Position numbers and translations under genes: made by a program | Notes under the pieces: model-generated | What the model saw: only the letters and a program-made list of their open reading frames with translations | Told to the model about the DNA's origin: nothing | Database searches by the model: none | Shown: in pieces, positions 2,482 through 48,417 of the stretch | How positions within the stretch are numbered: position 1 is the stretch's first letter | How the letters are laid out: every line of letters starts with the position of its first letter | Assembly: GCA_029210815.1 (NCBI GenBank) | Contig: JARGGB010000001.1 | Coordinates: 162,530 to 226,529, forward strand | Source: Candidatus Brevefilum sp. | Lineage (GTDB): Bacteria; Chloroflexota; Anaerolineae; Anaerolineales; Anaerolineaceae | Length of the DNA stretch: 64,000 nt | Direction of reading: 5' to 3'

Positions 2482-3612
2482 TTAATCGTAAATGACTTCT
2501 ACTTTTGTGGATTTATTCTGACCTTGAATGACAAGGTCACCCGGATAATAGTCAACTTTTGGTTCTGTCCAACGCCATATCCATTTAGCGTCCTCTGGTT
2601 TAGTGTTTACACAACCATGAGACCCAGGAATACCAAATTCATTGTGCCAGTAGGTCGCGTGGATTGCTGCGCCATGATTATCAAAAAGCGTTGTCCATCC
2701 AATTCCTGATAGATCATACCCGCCAACAATGGTACCACTCATGTGCGTTGAAAGGATCTTTCGCCAAATTGTATGTGTCCCTAGCGGCGTTTGCCATTCG
2801 CCTTCCTTATCTTTCCAGCCTGTTGTTACCTTTGTGAAAAAGACCTCCTCATCACCCTCATAACAAGAAAGCGTTTGATAAAGCAAGTTAACAATAATAT
2901 GTTTATCCTCTGCATCAGGATGAATCGGGGATATTTCTTCAGGCGTAATTTGACGACAAACAGTCGCATCAATCCAGTATTCATCAGGAAGTGCGCCATA
3001 AAGCTGCTTTAGACAATATTCAGTTTTTCCATTTTCGGGATTTGTCCTGATATCAAATGCCCAAAAAATTTGGGAGTAGTAAATACGTGGGTTTATTGTT
3101 TCCCGCACCCATGTTTGCGCAGGAGGCTTGGCAAAGGTCATACCTGTGTATGGGGTGACAATTTCTACCCACATGCCCCTTTCACCAGAAGGAGTCTGGG
3201 GCAATTCGGCTATAGGTTCTTGTGGGATGTGTTTTATCTTTTGAACATATTGGGCATAAATATAACCTGCTTCGGTTTCAACCCATCGTTGATTTATCCG
3301 GATTGGGTCAAGCTGCTTTGCGATAACTTCCTTTTTCCACTCGAAGACATCATCTCGCCACGCAGTTCCAACCTCTGGCGCATCCCAATATGGCTCACTC
3401 TTTATTGGAAAATGTGCACCCGGATCCCCCGAGCAAATCCGTCCCAGGGTTTTATTCAGAGGAAATTCAGGTTGAATAAGCTGCGGATTTATCGAAAAAC
3501 CGCTTTCAGCAAATACTCGATCCAATGAACTTCGACTTAAAGCTAGACCACCCAGGGTCAAGCCAAGTAATTTAATAAATTCGCGTCGTGAATAATTGTT
3601 AACTGGTTTCAT
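2482..3612 (-). CDS. Tat-exported L,D-transpeptidase (YkuD domain)
   Basis: A 376-residue protein. The N-terminus has a twin-arginine signal (SRREFIK at 8-14, then a hydrophobic stretch ending in LALS). The C-terminal part is a YkuD catalytic domain with the core GSHGCVNTKPEDA; the nucleophile is Cys334 and the conserved histidine is His332. YkuD enzymes make 3-3 cross-links in peptidoglycan or attach proteins to it. The roughly 200-residue region between signal and catalytic domain has no motif I recognise. The Tat signal is notable, since many YkuD proteins use Sec. It lies 9 bases upstream of ccdA. Confidence 0.85.
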   Translation of the reverse strand: MKPVNNYSRREFIKLLGLTLGGLALSRSSLDRVFAESGFSINPQLIQPEFPLNKTLGRICSGDPGAHFPIKSEPYWDAPEVGTAWRDDVFEWKKEVIAKQLDPIRINQRWVETEAGYIYAQYVQKIKHIPQEPIAELPQTPSGERGMWVEIVTPYTGMTFAKPPAQTWVRETINPRIYYSQIFWAFDIRTNPENGKTEYCLKQLYGALPDEYWIDATVCRQITPEEISPIHPDAEDKHIIVNLLYQTLSCYEGDEEVFFTKVTTGWKDKEGEWQTPLGTHTIWRKILSTHMSGTIVGGYDLSGIGWTTLFDNHGAAIHATYWHNEFGIPGSHGCVNTKPEDAKWIWRWTEPKVDYYPGDLVIQGQNKSTKVEVIYD

Positions 3613-3652: not shown

Positions 3653-5200
3653 TCAAATAGTTTTGAATGACGTTAATCTTTCATTCAAAACCAGATTTTT
3701 TACTTCATCAATTTCAGGACTCCACCATGCATCCCCCGCCTGATAAGGCACATCTTCACGGATCAGGGTGTAAGCTTTTCCTGTACCCTTCCCCAGGACC
3801 AGGTCCGGGTCCTGCCTCAAGCGCAGGTCTAACGCCCTGGCTGCGGTATAGAGTTCAATTGCAAGTACATGCGCAGTATTAGCAATGATCTCTCTGGTGT
3901 GCCTGGCTGCTGTCATTGCATTTGCATTGTGATCTTCCTGTTCCGCAGATGTTGGCAAAGACCTTACAGAATCAGGAGAAGCAAGCGTCTGGTTCTCAAG
4001 TACAAGGGATGCCGCCGTATATTGCGGCATCATCAAGCCAGAGTTCAATCCCGCAGCCGATAACCGATCAACCAGCATGGGTGGGAGATCAGCATTTAAA
4101 TGGCCATCGGTTAATCTAAAAACGCGCCTTTCAGAAATTGAAGCAACTTCCGACATGACAATGCTCAAAAAATCCATCACAACACCAACTGGTTCGCCGT
4201 GAAAATTCCCACCCGATACAGCTACACCCGGAGAGAACAAAAGGGGATTATCAGTGGCTGCGTTAATTTCTGTTTCTATGATTTTCTTTACAAAGTCCAG
4301 GGTATCCCAGGCAACGCCCTGAACCTGGGGCGCACACCTCAACGAATAAGCGTCCTGCACTCTGCCATAAGCATTGATCAGCGAGCTCCCATCGGTCAGC
4401 TCTCTGACTGATTTTGCCACTCGTGTTTGTCCATCATGCCCTCTTGCTTGATGTAATCGTTCATCAAATGCCGCTGAACACCCCATCACGGCTTCTAATG
4501 TCATCGAAAGAGATACCTCCCCGGCATTCAACAAAGTCTCAGCATCATGAACTGCCAAAGCTCCAATTGCGGCAGAGAATGTTGCGCCGTTATTAAGTGC
4601 CAATCCCTCTTTTGACCCGAGCAAGATTCGCTTAATCCCTGCTCGCCTCATTGCTTCCTTGCCGGTTAACACCTCTCCTTCAAAAACTGCCTGTCCCGAT
4701 TCTTTCTCATCATCTTTCTCACCTCGGGTGAAAACGAGGGCAAGGTGTGAGAGAGGTGCAAGATCACCTGATGACCCCAATGAGCCTTGAGAAGGAACAA
4801 CAGGAACGACATTTTTGTTTAACAATGCGATCAAAGTTTCGACCACATCAACCCTGACTCCTGAAAACCCCTTTGCAAGCGTATTCGCGCGAACAAGAAT
4901 CGCAGCCCTCACAATCTCATCATCCAATGTGCTTCCCGTGCCAACCGCATGACTCAGGATCAGATTGCGGCTTAATTGTGCGGAATCTTCAGATGGAATT
5001 TGATAATCAGCGAAAATACCAAAACCGGTATTAATTCCGTACACAGGTTCACCACGGCTCACAATTTGTTCGACCCAATGGCGCGATTCTCTAATCGCTT
5101 CCTTTGCTGATTCTGCAAGCGCAACCTTTGCACCGTGCCTGGCGACTGAAATAACATCCTCAATTTTAAGGCTCTGACCATCAATAATTATTTGTTTCAA
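3653..5200 (-). CDS. hutH: Histidine ammonia-lyase
   Basis: A 515-residue protein of the aromatic amino acid lyase family, of normal HAL length. Family landmarks are YGINTGFG (about 54-61), LSHAVG at 82-87 (the Ser-His pair that favours histidine over Phe or Tyr) and the MIO-forming loop SLGSSGDLAPL at 140-150. The tripeptide that would cyclise is Ser143-Ser144-Gly145 instead of the usual Ala-Ser-Gly. The reaction is L-histidine to urocanate plus ammonia. No hutU, hutI, hutG or ftcD is nearby, so the rest of the pathway, if present, is elsewhere. Gaps to the neighbouring genes are 40 and 17 bases. Confidence 0.9.
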   Translation of the reverse strand: MKQIIIDGQSLKIEDVISVARHGAKVALAESAKEAIRESRHWVEQIVSRGEPVYGINTGFGIFADYQIPSEDSAQLSRNLILSHAVGTGSTLDDEIVRAAILVRANTLAKGFSGVRVDVVETLIALLNKNVVPVVPSQGSLGSSGDLAPLSHLALVFTRGEKDDEKESGQAVFEGEVLTGKEAMRRAGIKRILLGSKEGLALNNGATFSAAIGALAVHDAETLLNAGEVSLSMTLEAVMGCSAAFDERLHQARGHDGQTRVAKSVRELTDGSSLINAYGRVQDAYSLRCAPQVQGVAWDTLDFVKKIIETEINAATDNPLLFSPGVAVSGGNFHGEPVGVVMDFLSIVMSEVASISERRVFRLTDGHLNADLPPMLVDRLSAAGLNSGLMMPQYTAASLVLENQTLASPDSVRSLPTSAEQEDHNANAMTAARHTREIIANTAHVLAIELYTAARALDLRLRQDPDLVLGKGTGKAYTLIREDVPYQAGDAWWSPEIDEVKNLVLNERLTSFKTI

Positions 5201-5217
5201 AACATAACTCCTGATAT

Positions 5218-5925
5218 CTAGAAGACAATCATCCCAATAATAACTGAGACAAGCGGTATGCTGAGGTTATCAATGTTTTCAAAAGGCAGCGATTCAATAA
5301 AGGCAGAAATTAGCGCAATGAATAAAATAGGTAAAATTGATTCACCAGGTGTGAGATCTAAATACCCCTGACTGATAAATACCCAGACCATCATAAAGGC
5401 AAATACAAAACCCCCAACTAGCACCGTCATTGAACCTGCAAGCGTCTTCTTTGGTGACCAGGGCAGCTTGTAGCCGCCCACATGATTGCCAATAATATCA
5501 GCCAGGCCGTCACCCCCGCATAAGATCATTAAAGCCACGATACCAACTGCTGAATTACGCCAAAACACAATCGTCAGAATGACAAATACTAGTCCATAAA
5601 AAAGCGGTCCTTTAAGTATCTCTTTTCGATCTCCGGAACGTGACATTGCTTCTACAGCGGATGGATCTTTGATAATACCTGAACCGACGAGGGCAAATTG
5701 TAAGGTGATCCCTAAGGGTACAAGGGCAGCAACAAAAGGCGCGAATGGTGAAGATTTAAAAAGCAGCCAGCATAAAACAAAAATTGGACCGGTGCCTATA
5801 TGAATAATTTTTCTGCTGGTTTTGCTGGTCACCCACCCTTTATGTGCAAAATAATCGTTAATGCGCAGCCACAATAAAGCAATAACCAGTGTTATTGCAA
5901 GAGCGATGAGGTTATTATTTAACAC
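5218..5925 (-). CDS. Phytol/dolichol kinase-like membrane protein
   Basis: A 235-residue polytopic protein with about six or seven hydrophobic segments. The stretch GGDGLADIIGNHVGG followed by SPKKTLAGS is the conserved core of the CTP-dependent phytol kinase/dolichol kinase/phosphatidate cytidylyltransferase-like family. It likely phosphorylates a polyprenol or similar lipid alcohol in the membrane; the substrate cannot be read from sequence. It lies between smpB and hutH on the same strand, with no obvious functional partner. Confidence 0.75.
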   Translation of the reverse strand: MLNNNLIALAITLVIALLWLRINDYFAHKGWVTSKTSRKIIHIGTGPIFVLCWLLFKSSPFAPFVAALVPLGITLQFALVGSGIIKDPSAVEAMSRSGDRKEILKGPLFYGLVFVILTIVFWRNSAVGIVALMILCGGDGLADIIGNHVGGYKLPWSPKKTLAGSMTVLVGGFVFAFMMVWVFISQGYLDLTPGESILPILFIALISAFIESLPFENIDNLSIPLVSVIIGMIVF

Positions 5926-5970
5926 AAGATCGTCGCTTTCATGAAATTATGATCAAATTCATGGCTAATT

Positions 5971-6429
5971 TTACCGATCCCGACGATCCAACGTTCGTTC
6001 AACTTCTCGTTCCATGTCGCGTTTCTTAATCGACTGCCGTTTATCATATTGGCGCTTTCCTTTTGCCAATGCAATTTCTAGTTTTGCGAGCCCATCCCGA
6101 AGGTACAGCATCGTTGGTATGATTGTCATTCCTTTCAAACGAACGCCATCCCATAACGCATTGATTTCGCGTTTATGCAGCAATAACCTTCGCTCACGTT
6201 CAGGATCATGGTTAAACGCACTTGCCTGATCATATGGGGCGATGTGTGCCCCAACCAACCATGCCTGGCGTCCATTAGTCCTAACGTATGCCTCTGAAAG
6301 AGAAACCTGCCGGGCACGGATAGACTTTATTTCCGACCCTCGAAGCTCTATTCCGGCTTCATAAGTGTCAAATAATTCGTATTCAAATTTTGCTTTTCGA
6401 TTTCTCGAAATAATCTTTATTCCATTCAT
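5971..6429 (-). CDS. smpB: SsrA-binding protein SmpB
   Basis: With the ATG at 6429 this is 152 residues, starting MNGIKIISRNRKAKFEYEL. That is the typical SmpB N-terminus, followed by GIELRGSEIKSIR and a basic C-terminal tail (KRQSIKKRDMEREVERTLD). SmpB binds tmRNA and enters stalled ribosomes for trans-translation. A GTG six codons earlier is in frame, but the family alignment favours the ATG. No Shine-Dalgarno precedes it; a TGTTAAAAT element ends about nine bases upstream, so translation may be leaderless. No tmRNA gene is nearby. Confidence 0.95.
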   Translation of the reverse strand: MNGIKIISRNRKAKFEYELFDTYEAGIELRGSEIKSIRARQVSLSEAYVRTNGRQAWLVGAHIAPYDQASAFNHDPERERRLLLHKREINALWDGVRLKGMTIIPTMLYLRDGLAKLEIALAKGKRQYDKRQSIKKRDMEREVERTLDRRDR

Positions 6430-6437
6430 AGTGACTA

Positions 6438-6446
6438 ATTTTAACA
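6438..6446 (-). promoter_or_regulatory. Possible extended -10 promoter for smpB
   Basis: Read on the minus strand, TGTTAAAAT fits TG-N-TAAAAT (extended -10, 5 of 6 in the hexamer). The expected start site falls within about two bases of the smpB ATG at 6429, implying a nearly leaderless transcript. No good -35 is visible. Confidence 0.4.
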
Positions 6447-6517
6447 CAGACTGATATGTTAATAAATCACCTTAACATTTAGGGCGGTCGCAAAGTCAAA
6501 ATATACAATTTCCCTTT

Positions 6518-6567
6518 AGTGTTTATCTATAAGGGTGGGTGGGGACAAAGCCCCACCTCTAAACACT
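6518..6567. repeat. Nested inverted repeat (cruciform-like hairpin)
   Basis: Outer arms AGTGTTTA (6518-6525) and TAAACACT (6560-6567) are perfect complements. They enclose a second perfect stem, GGTGGGG (6538-6544) with CCCCACC (6551-6557), loop ACAAAG. The left side has a 12-base bulge and the right side two bases. It lies between divergent genes, so it is not an ordinary 3' terminator. It may be a dispersed intergenic palindrome (REP/MITE-like). Confidence 0.6.
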
Positions 6568-6613
6568 TTTATTTCATTTACGCAATTCACAATCAAATAA
6601 AATTTCTGTGTAG

Positions 6614-6635
6614 GGGCTGACCACTTTGGCAGCCC
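6614..6635. repeat. Short hairpin GGGCTG...CAGCCC
   Basis: GGGCTG (6614-6619) pairs with CAGCCC (6630-6635). A bulged A and an inner CCA/TGG stem close on a three-base loop. It lies 47 bases right of the larger nested palindrome in the same gap, and may belong to the same intergenic repeat family. Confidence 0.5.
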
Positions 6636-6782
6636 GAAAAATAACTTTTGTCACACTAATACATCCTAATAAACCGAAAATTTGTTGTTTGGCTGCTGAA
6701 TAATCAACCTTGCGACCATACTACCTCACCAAAATACAGCGAGATATGATAATTTATCATCAATAAGCCAGCGACTCATGGG

Positions 6783-6788
6783 TATAAT
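6783..6788 (+). promoter_or_regulatory. Possible -10 element for patatin gene
   Basis: TATAAT, perfect to consensus, lies 41 bases before the ATG at 6830, with a Shine-Dalgarno (AAGGAG, 6813-6818) between. A TG sits two bases upstream of the hexamer, not one. No convincing -35. Confidence 0.4.
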
Positions 6789-6829
6789 AATGATTCGAGA
6801 GAAAAATCTTAAAAGGAGTGAGTTACTGG

Positions 6830-7750
6830 ATGGAAATTACACTGGCTTTAGGCGGTGGCGGCGTTCGAGGCATCGCTCACATTGGCGTTTTGAGAGCCTT
6901 AGAAAACCACGGTTTCAAAATTAAAGCAATTGCGGGCACAAGTGCTGGCGGACTGGTTGGGGCAGTTTACGCAGCGGGATTCAGCACTGAAAAAATCGAG
7001 AAAACAGTCAACGAAATGGATGCAAACCGGTCGTTCTGGCACCAATCAAACGACCAGCCTTCTCTTTTAGGACTTTCAGGTATTACCAAAATCCTCTCAG
7101 AGCTATTAGCAGATCGCACTTTTGAAGAATTAAAAATCCCATTTGCTGCAACTGCGGTAAGTTTGTATTCCGGTGAAGAAATCATTTTAACCAAAGGGAA
7201 GGTCATTGATGCTGTCCTGGCAACCATTGCTGTTCCAGGTGTTTTCCCCAGCCAGGAAATAGGCGGTCGAATATTGATAGATGGCGGTGTTTTGGATCCC
7301 GTTCCCGTACAGGTCGCCCGTTGGATGTGTCCGGACCTTCCTGTAGTTGCAGTCATGCTTCACAAAACACCAGAAGGCTGGGTTCCAGACGAACTTCCCC
7401 TCCCCATCTCAATTCCAGGTCCAAGTTCAATCGTGGAGCGGCTAACAAAATTACGCCCGGTACAGGCGCTCAAAATTTTCACACGATCAATCGAGGTTAG
7501 CAGTAAACACTTGTCAGAATTGTCTATGCAGGTTCATAAACCCGAAGTCATCATCACACCCCGGGTTGGGCATATCGGTTTGCTTCAAACCGTCGATGCT
7601 GAGGAAATGATCCGGGAAGGGATGAATGCTACGGAAGAGGTTCTAAAACAAATTGAATCGGAAGCAAACTGGATGAAAAAGCTTCAGCGAAAAGTAAAGG
7701 GAAAGTTCATACCTGGTGAAAAGCCCGAAATTTGGGGAGCGTTTGATTAG
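6830..7750 (+). CDS. Patatin-like phospholipase
   Basis: A 306-residue protein from the ATG at 6830, chosen because AAGGAG ends 11 bases before it; an in-frame GTG at 6818 overlaps that Shine-Dalgarno. All patatin motifs are present: the oxyanion loop GGGGVRG (8-14), nucleophile elbow GTSAGG (Ser38) and the DGG of the catalytic dyad (Asp151). This is the RssA/YlbK-like bacterial group, cytoplasmic acyl hydrolases of unsettled substrate. The esterase gene 31 bases downstream is probably co-transcribed. Confidence 0.88.
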   Translation: MEITLALGGGGVRGIAHIGVLRALENHGFKIKAIAGTSAGGLVGAVYAAGFSTEKIEKTVNEMDANRSFWHQSNDQPSLLGLSGITKILSELLADRTFEELKIPFAATAVSLYSGEEIILTKGKVIDAVLATIAVPGVFPSQEIGGRILIDGGVLDPVPVQVARWMCPDLPVVAVMLHKTPEGWVPDELPLPISIPGPSSIVERLTKLRPVQALKIFTRSIEVSSKHLSELSMQVHKPEVIITPRVGHIGLLQTVDAEEMIREGMNATEEVLKQIESEANWMKKLQRKVKGKFIPGEKPEIWGAFD

Positions 7751-42362: not shown

Positions 42363-43127
42363 ATGAATAATAACCTTGAACAATTCGAAACACGCTTACG
42401 TGTCTTATTTGAAGAAAATCTCATCAGGCTAATTCCTGGGATGCATGCCCCTCGAAAACTTTTTGATGATTTGTTGGGTGCAATGCATGAAAATGCAAGA
42501 GCAGCCTCCGAAAATCGAGCCTTAGCACCTGACCTATATAAAATTCATGTGCCTGAGGAAGACCTGGATGATTGGAAAGCGCATCAGGACATTTTGAATG
42601 AAATGGCGGATTTCCTACATAAAACAGGAAAATCTGAAGGTTATGAATTTAATCACCATCCGACATTAGTGGTCCTTCCCCAGGAAACAATACAAAGCAA
42701 GGTTTTTTATCTGGACACCAGTATCTCTCCTGCTAATCAAGTACTGCCAGACACTGCTGCGATTCCCAACAATGAGCGGCCAAACATTCAGGATGAAATC
42801 CCGGGTCGTGCTTTCCTTATTGTTGGAGGAAACGAAAACTTTTTACTTGAAAAATCAGTGATTGATATCGGTCGACACTCGGAGAATGATTTGATCCTGA
42901 ATGAACCCCACGTATCAAGGCACCACGCACAGCTTCGGGCGATCAACAAACGTTATATCATCTTTGATGTGGGTTCAACAGGCGGACTCTTTATCAATGG
43001 AAAGAAAATTTCTCAGGCGACTCTCCAACCCGGGGATGTCATTCGAATTGGTATGGTTAACCTGATTTTTGTACAGGATATCACCTCAGAAAATCCAACA
43101 ACAGCGATAACCATCGAGGAAGATTGA
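42363..43127 (+). CDS. FhaA-like protein: DUF3662 plus FHA domain
   Basis: A 254-residue protein. Residues 1-120 match the DUF3662 (FhaA N-terminal) domain; residues 150-245 form an FHA domain with the phosphothreonine-binding pattern DIGRHSENDLIL...HVSRHHAQLRA. FHA domains bind phosphothreonine peptides. In actinobacteria, FhaA sits with FhaB, RodA, PbpA and PknA/B in a cell-wall control cluster; here FhaB-like and RodA-like genes follow, but no kinase. No Shine-Dalgarno at the ATG. Confidence 0.85.
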   Translation: MNNNLEQFETRLRVLFEENLIRLIPGMHAPRKLFDDLLGAMHENARAASENRALAPDLYKIHVPEEDLDDWKAHQDILNEMADFLHKTGKSEGYEFNHHPTLVVLPQETIQSKVFYLDTSISPANQVLPDTAAIPNNERPNIQDEIPGRAFLIVGGNENFLLEKSVIDIGRHSENDLILNEPHVSRHHAQLRAINKRYIIFDVGSTGGLFINGKKISQATLQPGDVIRIGMVNLIFVQDITSENPTTAITIEED

Positions 43128-43138
43128 GGCAATAATAA

Positions 43139-43579
43139 ATGAACGCGATATTGGTATTCGCCCTCCGCTTACTGCTCATATTATTGTCCTACACCTTTTT
43201 GGGATGGATAATTTATACCATCTACATGGATCTGAAAAGAGAAAGCTCTTTGAAAGAGGAGAAAACCACATCTCCAATTGTTCTCTCAGTAAAAATCGAC
43301 GATGAAGAAATAACAAAACGCTTCAGACAACCTGAAATTATCCTTGGAAGAGACCCATCCGCAGACTTTTTCTTAAATAACGAAACAATTTCACTCAGGC
43401 ATTGCAAGGTCTTTTTCCGACAAAAACAATGGTGGGTAGAGGATCTTGAATCCACAAACGGGACGTATCTAAATCAAGGACAGGTTACGACTAGCACTAT
43501 TTTGACAGATGGTGATAAATTAACACTGGGAAAAGTAGACATCACAATTAGAATCAATCAAAATATCATACTGGAGTAA
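43139..43579 (+). CDS. FhaB-like membrane-anchored FHA protein
   Basis: A 146-residue protein. One N-terminal membrane helix (residues 4-28) is followed by an FHA domain (ILGRDPSADFFL, ISLRHCKVFF, LESTNGTYLN) that keeps the conserved Gly-Arg, Ser and Asn. It resembles FhaB/FipA of actinobacteria. Spacing to both neighbours is under 15 bases, so it is in the operon with the RodA-PBP fusion. Confidence 0.85.
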   Translation: MNAILVFALRLLLILLSYTFLGWIIYTIYMDLKRESSLKEEKTTSPIVLSVKIDDEEITKRFRQPEIILGRDPSADFFLNNETISLRHCKVFFRQKQWWVEDLESTNGTYLNQGQVTTSTILTDGDKLTLGKVDITIRINQNIILE

Positions 43580-43582
43580 GTT

Positions 43583-44449
43583 ATGATCGAAACCCCTATT
43601 TTGGCTGTCATTGGCGGATCAGGTTTGTATAATTTTAAGGATCTGACAGGTATCGAAACAATTCAATTGGATACCCCATTTGGAAAACCCAGCGCCCCGA
43701 TTACTCTGGGTAATTTGATGGGAAAACCCGTCGCTTTCCTCGCACGACATGGGATTGGGCATACATACTCACCCACCGAAGTCCCTTACCGGGCAAATAT
43801 GTTTGCCTTGAAAAAGCTGGGGGTAAAGCGGATCGTAAGTGTCAGTGCATGCGGATCATTGCGTGAAGCTTATGCTCCTGGCACCATCATCATTCCAAAT
43901 CAAATCTTCGACTTTACACACAAACGAGAAAGAAGTTTCTTTAGCGAGGGGCTGGTTGCACATGTTAGTGTGGCGGATCCTTTTTGTGAAAACCTTTCAA
44001 ACATTCTTGAAAACGCGGTTAAACAAACTGAAGCAAGATTTCATCGCGGTGGTACTTATATCACCATTGAAGGGCCAAGGTTCTCTACGAAAGGGGAATC
44101 CAACCTTTACAGGCAATGGGGAATTGACATCATCGGGATGACAGCCTCTCCAGAAGCTTTTCTTGCGCGTGAGGCAGAAATTTGCTACACAACGATGGCG
44201 CATGTAACAGACTATGACGTTTGGCATGTCAGTGAAGAGACCGTAACCGTTGATATGGTCATTCGAACCTTATCAAAAAATATCAGCCTTGCCCAGGAAG
44301 CGATCAAAAATTTGGTTGCTATGATTGATGAAACTGATGAATGTGATTGCCATAATGCGCTGCAAAATGCACTCATCACCAACCGTGATCATATCGATCC
44401 TGTAAAGAAAGCCCAAATTTCACTTCTGATTGAAAAATACCTGGATTAA
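43583..44449 (+). CDS. mtnP: S-methyl-5'-thioadenosine phosphorylase
   Basis: A 288-residue protein of the nucleoside phosphorylase family 2. Motifs: GGSGLYNFKDL, TPFGKPSAPI, FLARHGIGH, DFTHKRERSFF and TIEGPRFSTKGES. It splits methylthioadenosine with phosphate to adenine and methylthioribose 1-phosphate. It lies between fhaB-like and rodA-PBP genes with 2-3 base gaps, an odd insertion in a cell-wall operon. Selectivity for MTA over adenosine or inosine is inferred from the motif set. Confidence 0.88.
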   Translation: MIETPILAVIGGSGLYNFKDLTGIETIQLDTPFGKPSAPITLGNLMGKPVAFLARHGIGHTYSPTEVPYRANMFALKKLGVKRIVSVSACGSLREAYAPGTIIIPNQIFDFTHKRERSFFSEGLVAHVSVADPFCENLSNILENAVKQTEARFHRGGTYITIEGPRFSTKGESNLYRQWGIDIIGMTASPEAFLAREAEICYTTMAHVTDYDVWHVSEETVTVDMVIRTLSKNISLAQEAIKNLVAMIDETDECDCHNALQNALITNRDHIDPVKKAQISLLIEKYLD

Positions 44450-44451
44450 TT

Positions 44452-47103
44452 GTGATCAACATCTTTCCATATGGGGATAAAAGTTCCCCTAACGATCAAA
44501 CTCAGGGCAAATTAATATCCCTTGCGGCAATCATTATTATCATATTTGCCTTGATCTTATCCATATCGCCGATGATACGTTACCATGGCGCGGCAGAAGG
44601 ATACCGCTTTGACCACTGGTTGGGGGTAGGTGTTTGGATAGCCGCATTTGGACTGCTGCATTATCAGTCGTCGCGGAAATTACCGCAAAGAGATCCGTTT
44701 ATTCTTCCGATAATTTCTCTTTTATCCGGTATCGGATTAATGACCATCTGGCGACTATATCCGAATTTAGGACTTCGTCAAACGATTTGGATCGCTTTAG
44801 CTTCAGCACTGGTTTTTCTTGGCTTGAATTTCCCCATTTTTTTGGATTATTTGCGTCGTTATAAATATATATGGCTAATCTCAGGTTTATTATTGACTGG
44901 CTTAACCATTTTCATGGGAACCAATCCATTGGGCAATGGACCCACGTTATGGTTAAAATTCCTTGGAATCCACTTTCAACCCTCTGAAGTTTTAAAAATT
45001 CTGCTGATCGCTTTCCTGGCGAGTTTCTTAACTGATCGACAGGTCTTTGTTTACAAGAAATTCGATATCTTATTACCCACCTTATTTGTTATTGGTTCTG
45101 CGCTGGCATTGCTTGTCGTTCAAAGAGATTTAGGAACAGCAACAATTTTTCTTTTGATCTACATTGGCATGATCTTCTCCTCAAAGGGGAATAAAATTCT
45201 CTTTTATGGTGCACTAATTTTAGCAGTTATCATAATTGGATTTGCTTATATTTATATCGACATCGTCAAGCTGCGTTTTGATGCCTGGTTGAACCCATTT
45301 ATCGACCCTTCAGGCGCATCTTATCAAATTCTTCAATCGTTGATTGCAATTGCAGAAGGCAGTATCTTTGGAACAGGACCCGGTTTGGGCAGTCCAGGTT
45401 TGATCCCTGTGGCTGTCTCCGACTTTATCTTTGCGTCAATAACCGAAGAATTGGGATTGTTTGGTGCCGGCTTGATTATTTCACTCTATATCATTTTGCT
45501 CTATAGGGCGTTAAAGCTCGTGAAAATAACCCAGCATTCATTTGACCGCTATTTGGCATTGGGCTTAACCTTTTATTTTGGTGTTCAAAGCATTTTGATC
45601 ATCGGCGGCAACATCGGATTCCTCCCCCTGACAGGTGTTACCCTGCCTTTTGTGTCCTATGGAGGGTCATCACTGCTCATATCCTTTATTGCAGTCCTGT
45701 TTCTTCTGATTATCAGCAATCGAGTTCCTGCTAATCCTCAGATTGAATTAATTCACCGACGTCGGACTATCCGTTTGTGCAGCCTTCTCATTGCAATTCT
45801 TGGCCTGGAAATGCTTGTCACCAGTCTGGCATCTTTCTGGTTTATGCCGAGTCTGGTCAATCGACCTGAAAACCCCCGCTGGATTGTCCATGATCGGTTC
45901 AGCGAACGGGGAAAGATACTTGACCAGGACAATCAAATCATAGTTACGAACAGTGGTCAAACAGGTTCCTTCCAAAGAGAAAGCAATCATATCCCTCTTT
46001 ATCCAATCATCGGCTATACGAACCCAACCTATGGTCAAACGGGAATTGAAGAAAGCATGTTTGATTATTTGCGTGGTTACGAAACTTATCCTGCAATGAC
46101 GCTCTTCTGGCAGGATCTGCTTTACAACCAACCACCTGAGGGATCGGATATCAGGTTAACCATCGATCTTGAATTACAAAAATTTGCGGATTCTTTGCTC
46201 GGTGAAGAACAAGGAGCAATTGTTTTAATGAACGCCCAATCGGGCGAAATCATAACCATGGCATCCCACCCCTATTTTGACGGAAAAAACTTGGAAGAAA
46301 ACTGGCAGGACCTGATAAACAATGAAGACGCTCCGCTTGTCAACCGGGCAACCCAGGGTTTGTACCCACCAGGTGCCACGCTGTTTCCCTTTGTTGCATC
46401 GACACAAATTGAACTTATTCAGCAAAATGAGGACCCTTTTTCCATCATGAATGGCTCCCCACAATTACACACCTGTGCAACTTTTCCGGGTTCTGACCTG
46501 ACCTGGCAAGCTGCCATGACACACGGCTGCCAGGATGTTCAGGCAAAACTTGCAGAATTTACGGATGTCAATCAGCTTATTGAATTATTCCAAAATCTAA
46601 ATTTCTTCACGCCCCCTGATATCCGGCTGAATGTCGCCCAGGCTGATTCCCCGGATTATGAGATACCTGAAGCGCTTTACACAGGTCAGGGTGCATTCAA
46701 TCTTACACCGCTTCAAATGTCTTTAGCTGCCAGCGCATTGACCAATCAGGGCATTCTGCCAGCGCCGAGGCTTGTTAACGCCTATCAATATTCAAATGGG
46801 ACCTGGATCACCCTCTCAAAATTAGGACAAAATTCCCAGGCATTAGATGCCGATGCAGCTTTCTGGATCACCAGCCTGCTGGAAACGCCTGATTCCCCGC
46901 ATTGGCAGATTACATCAAGCGTCTCAACTCTGGATGAACAAGTGATCACCTGGTTTATCGCCGGCACCACTGCGGATTGGCGGGGGCAGCCAACAACTGT
47001 CGTTGTTCTTCTCGAGAGAGATGCAGCTTTACTTGCCGAAGATATCGGGTTATCACTCTTAGAACAATCCACACAAATCTCATTGACCAAAGGTCAGCAG
47101 TAA
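44452..47103 (+). CDS. RodA/FtsW-type glycosyltransferase fused to a degenerate PBP transpeptidase domain
   Basis: An 883-residue protein from a GTG start. Residues 1-435 are a SEDS (RodA/FtsW) domain with about ten helices and motifs FQPSEVLKILL, QRDLGTAT, IAEGSIFGTGPGLGSPG and SDFIFASITEELG. Residues 450-883 align in layout with a class B PBP transpeptidase (LTIDLELQKFADSL, NRATQGLYPPG). Its SxxK is replaced by ATLF (642-645), the SxN region reads GCQ, and the KTG region reads IAGTTADW without Lys-Thr-Gly. The polymerase half should be active; the PBP half is probably a pseudoenzyme partner. Confidence 0.85.
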   Translation: MINIFPYGDKSSPNDQTQGKLISLAAIIIIIFALILSISPMIRYHGAAEGYRFDHWLGVGVWIAAFGLLHYQSSRKLPQRDPFILPIISLLSGIGLMTIWRLYPNLGLRQTIWIALASALVFLGLNFPIFLDYLRRYKYIWLISGLLLTGLTIFMGTNPLGNGPTLWLKFLGIHFQPSEVLKILLIAFLASFLTDRQVFVYKKFDILLPTLFVIGSALALLVVQRDLGTATIFLLIYIGMIFSSKGNKILFYGALILAVIIIGFAYIYIDIVKLRFDAWLNPFIDPSGASYQILQSLIAIAEGSIFGTGPGLGSPGLIPVAVSDFIFASITEELGLFGAGLIISLYIILLYRALKLVKITQHSFDRYLALGLTFYFGVQSILIIGGNIGFLPLTGVTLPFVSYGGSSLLISFIAVLFLLIISNRVPANPQIELIHRRRTIRLCSLLIAILGLEMLVTSLASFWFMPSLVNRPENPRWIVHDRFSERGKILDQDNQIIVTNSGQTGSFQRESNHIPLYPIIGYTNPTYGQTGIEESMFDYLRGYETYPAMTLFWQDLLYNQPPEGSDIRLTIDLELQKFADSLLGEEQGAIVLMNAQSGEIITMASHPYFDGKNLEENWQDLINNEDAPLVNRATQGLYPPGATLFPFVASTQIELIQQNEDPFSIMNGSPQLHTCATFPGSDLTWQAAMTHGCQDVQAKLAEFTDVNQLIELFQNLNFFTPPDIRLNVAQADSPDYEIPEALYTGQGAFNLTPLQMSLAASALTNQGILPAPRLVNAYQYSNGTWITLSKLGQNSQALDADAAFWITSLLETPDSPHWQITSSVSTLDEQVITWFIAGTTADWRGQPTTVVVLLERDAALLAEDIGLSLLEQSTQISLTKGQQ

Positions 47104-47160: not shown

Positions 47161-48375
47161 TTATTTTTCAACCCTTAAAAACCGTCGTTTGCCAACCTGA
47201 ACAATAACGGGGGGAGTCAGCACCATGTAGGGGTCACTAACCGCTTCCCCATCAATCTTCACGCCATTCTGATCAACCAATCGGCGAACCTGGGATTTGC
47301 TTCGGACCAGGCCGCTGTCCACCAACACATCCAATAAGATCGGCTCTCCAGAAGGCTTAAATACTTCCATGTCATCCGGGGTGTCCTTTTTTTGAAAAAG
47401 GGTGATGAAATGTTCTTGCGCCTTTTGTGCTTTTTCATCATCAAAGAATGCTGAAGTAATCTCCTTCGCCAGCTCTAATTTGGCGTCCCTGGGGTGCAAT
47501 TCACCCTTCTCGATAGCATTTTCAAATTTGTCAATCTTATCAACGGTCCAACGAGTGACAAGACGTGCGTAACTTGACATCGCTTTGTCCGGCACACTCA
47601 TCACCTTACCAAACATATCCTCAGGCGTTGTGTTCAGAGGGATATGGTTCCCGAGGGACTTGCTCATCTTCACATCACCATCGGTGCCGGGCAATATTCC
47701 CAGGATGATACCAATGTTCGGCTTTTTACCGTAATATGACATGATCTTTCGGGCAGCGGTCATGATGTTGAACATCTGGTCCGTGCCGCCCACCTGCACA
47801 TCCGCATCCAGTGCGTAGGCGTCGTAACCCTGCATGATCGCATAAAACAATTCATGAAAATAAACTGCTTCCTCATTATCAAAGCGCTTTTTAAAGTTTT
47901 CTCTCGTAAAAAATTGCTGCAGTGTAAAATTCGATGCCAGGTGGATCAAGTCTTTTAATTTTAAATCTGATAACCATTCAGCGTTGTAACGCACCTCTGT
48001 CTTCTCTCGATCAAGGATGCGAAATGCCTGCTCGGCATAGGTTTCAGCGTTCACCTGTGCTTCTTCCGGAGAGAGCTGTGCCCTCAGCTTGTCTTTGTCA
48101 GAGGGGTCACCGATAAGGGCAGTATATGTCCCAACTACAAAAATAACATGATGCCCCAATTCCTGGAATTGGCGTAGTTTGCGCATTGTAACGGTATGCC
48201 CAATATGCAAATCCGATGTTCTGGGATCGTATCCGCAGTAAACCCTCAGTGGCCTTCCAGAGCTTTCTGATTCCACCAGCCGGTCCCTGAGCTCTTTTCT
48301 CATGGATTCGTGCATCGCCTGGTCACCATATGCAGTCCCTCGCATTAAATATGTTACCTGCTGATCAATATTCAT
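47161..48375 (-). CDS. tyrS: Tyrosyl-tRNA synthetase
   Basis: A 404-residue protein from the ATG at 48375, which has AAGGAGG seven bases upstream. Class I signatures are clear: HIGHTVTMRKL and KMSKSLG. A YYG-less anticodon region and an S4 domain close the protein (VRSKSQVRRLVDQNGVKIDG). It charges tRNA-Tyr. A terminator-like hairpin lies in the 5' leader, 43-65 bases before the start. Confidence 0.95.
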   Translation of the reverse strand: MNIDQQVTYLMRGTAYGDQAMHESMRKELRDRLVESESSGRPLRVYCGYDPRTSDLHIGHTVTMRKLRQFQELGHHVIFVVGTYTALIGDPSDKDKLRAQLSPEEAQVNAETYAEQAFRILDREKTEVRYNAEWLSDLKLKDLIHLASNFTLQQFFTRENFKKRFDNEEAVYFHELFYAIMQGYDAYALDADVQVGGTDQMFNIMTAARKIMSYYGKKPNIGIILGILPGTDGDVKMSKSLGNHIPLNTTPEDMFGKVMSVPDKAMSSYARLVTRWTVDKIDKFENAIEKGELHPRDAKLELAKEITSAFFDDEKAQKAQEHFITLFQKKDTPDDMEVFKPSGEPILLDVLVDSGLVRSKSQVRRLVDQNGVKIDGEAVSDPYMVLTPPVIVQVGKRRFLRVEK

Positions 48376-48417
48376 ACTTACCTCCTTCATAATTCCCGGC
48401 ACCTACACAAAAGAAAA

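Follow-up and report, generated by a model that had tools for sequence, protein, structure and literature searches.

A gene in the stretch of Candidatus Brevefilum sp. DNA analysed here (64,000 nucleotides, called the window below) joins a SEDS polymerase to a PbpA-type penicillin-binding protein (PBP) half without any of the three transpeptidase motifs, a loss that extends through a whole clade of relatives. Natural SEDS-PBP fusions are already known; the clade-wide pseudo-enzyme is a new form of SEDS-bPBP synthase. The dead half has probably been kept as a built-in activator or scaffold of the polymerase, with cross-linking performed by other transpeptidases.

The fusion gene (44452..47103, forward strand, as are all features of the protein given below) has a GTG start and encodes 883 amino acids without an internal stop. 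With matches to PF01098, PF21922 and PF00905 in this one reading frame, the SEDS-PBP fusion proposed in the preliminary description is real; the same arrangement, that of a natural fusion synthase, is found in a same-genus genome (L060) and others. The AF2 model has a pLDDT of 88.3. The SEDS polymerase core occupies aa 74–425 (44671..45726), with the PF01098 match at aa 108–423 (E 1.7e-67; 228.4 bits against a curated cut-off of 26.4); its sequence is related to solved FtsW/RodA proteins (8bh1, 8tj3 and 6bar among them), and its Asp324 (D324, 45421..45423) aligns with RodA's catalytic residue, D262 in E. coli. Then come a helix from the former PBP, predicted to span the membrane (aa 436–463, 45757..45840; a helix in the AF2 model), an anchor motif, R-P-E-N-P-R, recognized by column conservation (aa 471–476, 45862..45879), a pedestal or PBP_dimer_2 region (aa 470–585, 45859..46206; PF21922 at aa 486–567, E 1.8e-07), and a pseudo-transpeptidase domain of transpeptidase fold (aa 586–880, 46207..47091; PF00905 at aa 588–812, E 7e-15). 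A PBP_dimer_2 pedestal followed by a transpeptidase is the PbpA-type class B fold, and the fold matches listed for the protein are all PBP folds.

That this half lacks SxxK, SxN and KTG, as first read from the sequence alone, was borne out by alignment with active PBPs. The SxxK site reads ATLF (aa 642–645, 46375..46386), within YPPGATLFPF, opposite PGSxxK of active PBPs; the SxN site reads GCQ (aa 692–694, 46525..46533); and the KTG site reads ITS (aa 820–822, 46909..46917), a placing contingent on the alignment, since the stretch ahead of WFIAG is shortened. The protein thus has neither the catalytic motifs of class B PBPs nor the active transpeptidase half of fusion synthases, and with the three motifs absent its PBP half is homologous to functional class B PBPs but itself a pseudo-enzyme. 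Intact motifs in the nearest relatives would have pointed to local decay; L060, whose protein is 91% identical, also lacks all three, reading STLF, GCQ and ITS, with the Ser present and the Lys absent. A search of 5.8 billion proteins with the window fusion gave 1382 matches, 120 of which were listed and aligned. Among these 120 and the window protein, none has K at 645 and 117 of 121 have G692. Local decay is ruled out by L060 and this alignment, the dead state being clade-wide, and sequencing error at the motif sites is excluded by the same comparisons. Two cysteines, C675 (46474-46476) and C693 (46528-46530), the latter in the middle of the former SxN, are invariant in the 121 sequences; a disulfide between them is possible.

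On the same strand, upstream of the fusion, domain matches identify an FhaA-like gene (FhaA_N and FHA domain, 42363..43127) and a gene for an FhaB-like FHA protein (43139..43579), the context typical of the PbpA type. Between fhaB and the fusion lies a gene for S-methyl-5'-thioadenosine (MTA) phosphorylase (43583..44449, forward strand), regarded as a neighbour and not as part of the system; tyrS follows downstream on the other strand (47161-48402). The MTA phosphorylase gene is found directly upstream of SEDS in many loci, with active or dead PBPs alike, and has no evident link to wall synthesis. FhaA/FhaB-like genes precede SEDS in many dead relatives (e.g., L117-L121, L124) and in many active ones (e.g., L125, L126, L131, L136-L140), in a survey where the flank was too short to judge in many loci; some loci (L127, L152 and several from Lachnospiraceae) have no FHA gene in the 7–8 kb upstream. 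The Brevefilum genome encodes two further SEDS proteins, the first adjoining a PBP, MreC and MreB, and the other in a cluster with Mur ligases, a MurG-like gene, MraW and an FtsI-like PBP. Beside these separate MreB-linked and FtsW/FtsI-type pairs, the fusion represents the FHA-linked RodA/PbpA type, to which the original label “RodA-type” can be sharpened.

In actinobacteria, the gene order at the corresponding locus is fhaA-fhaB-pstP-rodA-pbpA-pknA-pknB. Like the actinobacterial RodA-PbpA pair, the window protein has fhaA and fhaB upstream and a PBP_dimer_2 domain, and its best match among solved folds is M. tuberculosis PbpA. Unlike that pair, it is fused, has no SxxK, SxN or KTG, and is separated from fhaB by the MTA phosphorylase gene. 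A mycobacterial and actinobacterial locus with fhaA, fhaB, rodA and pbpA is described in the passages available from PMC11898655 and PMC6554272.

For a wider comparison, loci were drawn from 199 genomes of the class, 301 genomes of the phylum and named contigs: 30 loci were fetched from each of the two genome sets, in part identical ones, together with 60 chosen stretches, and for named contigs the top 80 of 585 matches were confirmed. L058 and L059, which duplicate L039 and L038, were left out. Partner PBPs without SxxK, SxN and KTG were scored as dead, and those keeping all three as active. The counted set holds 136 SEDS partners with a readable PBP, fused or adjacent (two identical pairs, L011/L122 and L076/L127, included): 66 are dead (among them L054, a broken fragment), 69 are active, and one (L051) keeps KTG only, so the three motifs are nearly always kept or lost together. 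Searching for the fused architecture across Chloroflexota, as the preliminary description had suggested, thus turned up 49 dead fusions in the counted set; the other 17 dead PBPs are separate genes, and of the active ones 65 are separate and 4 fused. Outside Chloroflexota all PBPs read are intact, including the Coriobacteriia/Actinomycetota fusions L125, L126 and L131, and a same-phylum genome (L075) also has a fusion with intact motifs. These four share the one-ORF domain order of the window protein, but they keep the three motifs and are separate fusion events on the tree. Intact separate pairs also occur in the window's own class (L031, L043, L045, L046, L052, L053, L103, L104). None of 50 SEDS matches without a partner by BLAST was counted among the 136; HMM searches found intact partners at five of these loci (L101, L142, L151, L160, L170), and another of the 50, L094, carries a PBP piece that was put in neither class.

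Several of the sampled loci deserve separate mention. The KTG-only PBP (L051:2125-3252) is the sole partly degenerate one seen, with SxxK and SxN lost; it has close kin with intact motifs (L045), and its state may be due to recent loss or to misassembly. Kindred SEDS genes with no PBP found alongside occur at L088, L089, L092, L095, L114, L135 and L141, mostly in genomes of Chloroflexota. L119, on a contig titled Chloroflexus sp., clusters on the SEDS tree with fusions from the window's order, and its record name is probably wrong. One genome of the window's family (G359, a single contig, 99% complete) yields no match to the fusion at E 1e-45; it carries two SEDS proteins, compared with three in the five other same-family relatives searched, so the fusion system is dispensable there. 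The same genome has an FtsW fused to MurG (L215:2714-4987, a 757-aa ORF with PF01098 and both Glyco_transf_28 domains), and the next ORF (5006-7327), judged by eye, looks like a MurC-MurB fusion.

Substitutions at the SxxK site include K to Q or E in 30 of the 66 dead rows; N to P at SxN is found in 29, and K to H at KTG in 27, while the SxN segment is gapped altogether in 26. A second search with a short protein (L123, discussed below) as query gave 5815 matches, of which 120 were listed. None of these 120 has KTG in its PBP part, and the SxN is gapped in 117; three homologue clusters (P0179, P0190, P0195) have SALK at the SxxK columns, with neither SxN nor KTG, which may be regained or coincidental.

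The polymerase half has a different record. The equivalent of Asp324 is D in 66/66 dead rows, 69/69 active rows and 120/120 further homologues, and almost every further SEDS position listed is as conserved there as in the partners of active PBPs. Both observations speak against an inactive polymerase, in which the protein would be a lipid II sensor or docking platform; such a role seems very improbable.

The history of these changes was read from a SEDS tree built by maximum likelihood and rooted on Actinomycetota, with 92 of the 136 rows remaining after manual thinning of redundant entries (L051 and L054 are among those omitted). Named rows that group with the window protein, L117 (Leptolinea sp. 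HRD-7), L118, L120 and L121, point to Chloroflexota and the class Anaerolineae. One clade, with support of 98/92, contains 51 of the 52 dead rows. The exception is L074, from a genome (G208) of the same phylum as the window and of another class. A single loss for all dead rows was rejected, the AU test giving p 0.009 for joining L074 to the dead clade, and L074 therefore represents a second loss. A single clade of the 35 other dead fusions was likewise rejected (AU p 1e-101); both tests were framed post hoc, after a tree was known. Two dead/active and eight fused/separate changes are the fewest the tree requires, five of the latter within the dead clade alone. An earlier tree, for which FtsW and RodA of the Brevefilum genome served as outgroup and in which long branches met, needed three dead/active changes instead of two and was not used for rooting.

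The earliest branch of the dead clade (L032, L038, L039) is dead yet unfused, and one family (f36) has dead pairs, dead fusions and a stub (L107) side by side. As the earliest dead branch is unfused and a single dead-fusion clade is rejected, catalytic loss would have preceded fusion, and on the same grounds fusion is ruled out as the cause of the loss. The rooted tree thus points to one loss in the main dead clade and one more in L074, with fusion arising repeatedly afterward; as a reconstruction from sequences this history is well supported, and the K to Q/E, N to P and K to H replacements shared by dead rows fit it. The original picture of a pseudo-PBP tied to its polymerase in one polypeptide is to be amended in that fusion and loss are separate events: active fusions and dead separate genes both exist among the 136 partners.

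The relatives read within the order are mostly 800–890 aa long; among them, members of family f2 are without the SxN-bearing segment, as is L034 (family f5), for which the structure model is nonetheless confident (pLDDT 88.7). In two proteins, L123:7968-9437 and L107:651-2270, only SEDS, the PBP membrane helix and the NPR anchor are present, with the stop 16 residues after the anchor in L123 and 23 in L107; tblastn found no PBP sequence downstream of either in any frame. By sequence, these are natural SEDS plus PBP-helix proteins. L123 is followed by an oppositely oriented tyrS that shares 63% identity with the one next to the window fusion, and the matching tyrS marks the two as the same locus; the next ORF after L107 has a marginal PHP-domain match. 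Four other short proteins (P0122, P0144, P0191, P0235; 533–626 aa) have tails that look frame-shifted and were not counted as stubs. Together these form a graded natural series, from active pair to dead pair, dead fusion, shortened domain, and finally helix-and-anchor stub.

Between the window protein and L060, dN/dS is 0.077 for SEDS, 0.042 for the transmembrane helix and pedestal, and 0.103 for the transpeptidase domain. Over the 16 pairs listed, the transpeptidase value ranges from 0.07 to 0.28 (dS is saturated in several), and it exceeds that of SEDS in all or nearly all listed pairs with both values. Divergence relative to SEDS, calculated with L028, L054 and L074 omitted from the dead set, has a median of 1.80 in dead and 1.16 in active transpeptidase domains, and of 1.33 and 1.38 for the pedestal. 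Within the band of SEDS distances from 0.3 to 0.7, the dead and active values are 1.89 and 1.36 for the transpeptidase, and 1.08 and 1.51 for the pedestal. Constraint on the pedestal is thus undiminished or even stronger after the loss, and that on the transpeptidase domain is relaxed, not absent.

The preliminary description had taken a well-kept scaffold as a sign of selection instead of decay. This holds in part. Purifying selection is evident in the 0.103 for the transpeptidase, the dead state is clade-wide, and the pedestal is indeed well kept; the transpeptidase domain, on the other hand, has a divergence relative to SEDS ~1.4–1.6 times that of active relatives, with shortening in sister lineages and complete absence from two genomes. 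Slow decay, with a transpeptidase made redundant by other PBPs or L,D-transpeptidases and left as a passive remnant that serves only polymerase folding or stability until it is deleted, could explain this faster divergence, the shrinkage of the dead region (median 277 and minimum 189 residues, compared with an active median of 315), the missing SxN-bearing segment in many members, and the absence of the domain from L107 and L123. It nevertheless appears unlikely in view of the low dN/dS over the listed pairs, the 49 transpeptidase columns at least 95% conserved in the 121 homologues (C675 and C693 included), and the persistence of the dead domain throughout a whole clade.

Column by column, with L054 and L074 omitted from the dead set, 17 positions conserved in active rows are lost in dead ones, seven of them motif residues. 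Conserved in dead rows only are R471, D473, P475, D537 and R541, in the anchor and pedestal, and L614 in the transpeptidase domain, the dead group being slightly narrower (median SEDS distance 0.88, compared with 0.99 for active), which by itself adds conserved columns. Among the 120 listed homologues of the L123 protein, N474 and R476 are found in all 120 and R541 in 115. In the dead group no polar column has gained conservation around the old active site, and a new catalytic site there was rejected for this reason. The same result weighs against repurposing more generally, in which the former active-site cleft would bind stem peptide, lipid II or another protein, or carry out new chemistry, as does the gapping of the SxN segment in so many dead rows and further homologues. 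The near-invariant G692 and invariant C693 and C675 of the window's subfamily, and the N to P and K to H replacements common to many dead members, are what might be expected of a repurposed cleft, which is on balance quite improbable.

An activator or allosteric role for the pseudo-PBP is the best inference, drawn from the places where constraint persists and from what is published on the biochemistry of RodA-PBP2. According to the available passages of PMC10449877, E. coli RodA with the membrane helix of PBP2 alone is significantly stimulated relative to RodA alone. Those of PMC10257715 state that RodA and FtsW require their bPBP for polymerization in vitro, and those of PMC6207328 that RodA keeps polymerizing when the PBP2 transpeptidase is blocked. 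A partner with helix, anchor and pedestal and no chemistry is what would be expected if activation alone is needed. The SEDS half, with its catalytic Asp kept, is predicted to polymerize glycan; the pseudo-transpeptidase domain would not be acylated; and the membrane helix, NPR anchor and pedestal may hold or switch the polymerase in its active state, like the cognate bPBP in RodA-PBP2. By analogy with the mycobacterial fhaA-fhaB-rodA-pbpA locus, FhaA/FhaB and phospho-signalling could set the place or time of polymerase work.

Glycan polymerization is toxic to E. coli when the cognate PBP does not cross-link the product (available portions of PMC6207328), so a dead partner would need a compensating cross-linker. 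The genome's other PBPs and its L,D-transpeptidases presumably cross-link the glycan strands. A survey for active class B PBPs, proposed from the outset, found five other PF00905 proteins, all with the three motifs; four carry class B domains, and the fifth, judged from its N-terminal half, looks like class A. There are also six YkuD (L,D-transpeptidase) matches in the genome, one of them inside the window (2557-2907, reverse strand).

No clade-wide, catalytically dead SEDS partner was found in the literature searched, mostly open papers as represented by titles and the beginnings of abstracts. For natural SEDS-PBP fusions, the accessible text of PMC10449877 says that “examples exist,” citing the Rhodococcus RHA1 genome, and residue numbers of ~523–954 in Atopobium parvulum structures (4jbf, 4n1x and others) suggest that these structures derive from such a fusion. 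The nearest functional parallels are E. coli RodA with the PBP2 transpeptidase blocked, or laboratory constructs of RodA fused to just the membrane helix of PBP2, in which the polymerase is likewise uncoupled from its own cross-linking (excerpts of PMC6207328 and PMC10449877); there, however, the uncoupling is imposed, while in the window's group it is natural and clade-wide.

A SEDS polymerase and its transpeptidase are regarded as closely coupled in model bacteria, since strands left without cross-links feed a futile cycle that is toxic (PMC6207328, PMC10257715, in the parts available). The clade described here has retained the polymerase, together with the anchor and pedestal of its partner in almost every member read, and has discarded the partner's chemistry. 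By showing which part of the partner evolution retains, the reduction series provides a direct test of what activates SEDS and of the need for coupling. A bolder proposal, possible and put forward only tentatively, is that the clade has lastingly uncoupled a SEDS elongation-type synthase from cross-linking, the PBP having become a pure allosteric activator that was repeatedly fused and is now being pared down to the single membrane helix and NPR anchor required to switch the polymerase on, with the glycan passed to other transpeptidases. If this is true, the coupling deemed essential in model bacteria would be dispensable, and the synthase would be blind to beta-lactams.
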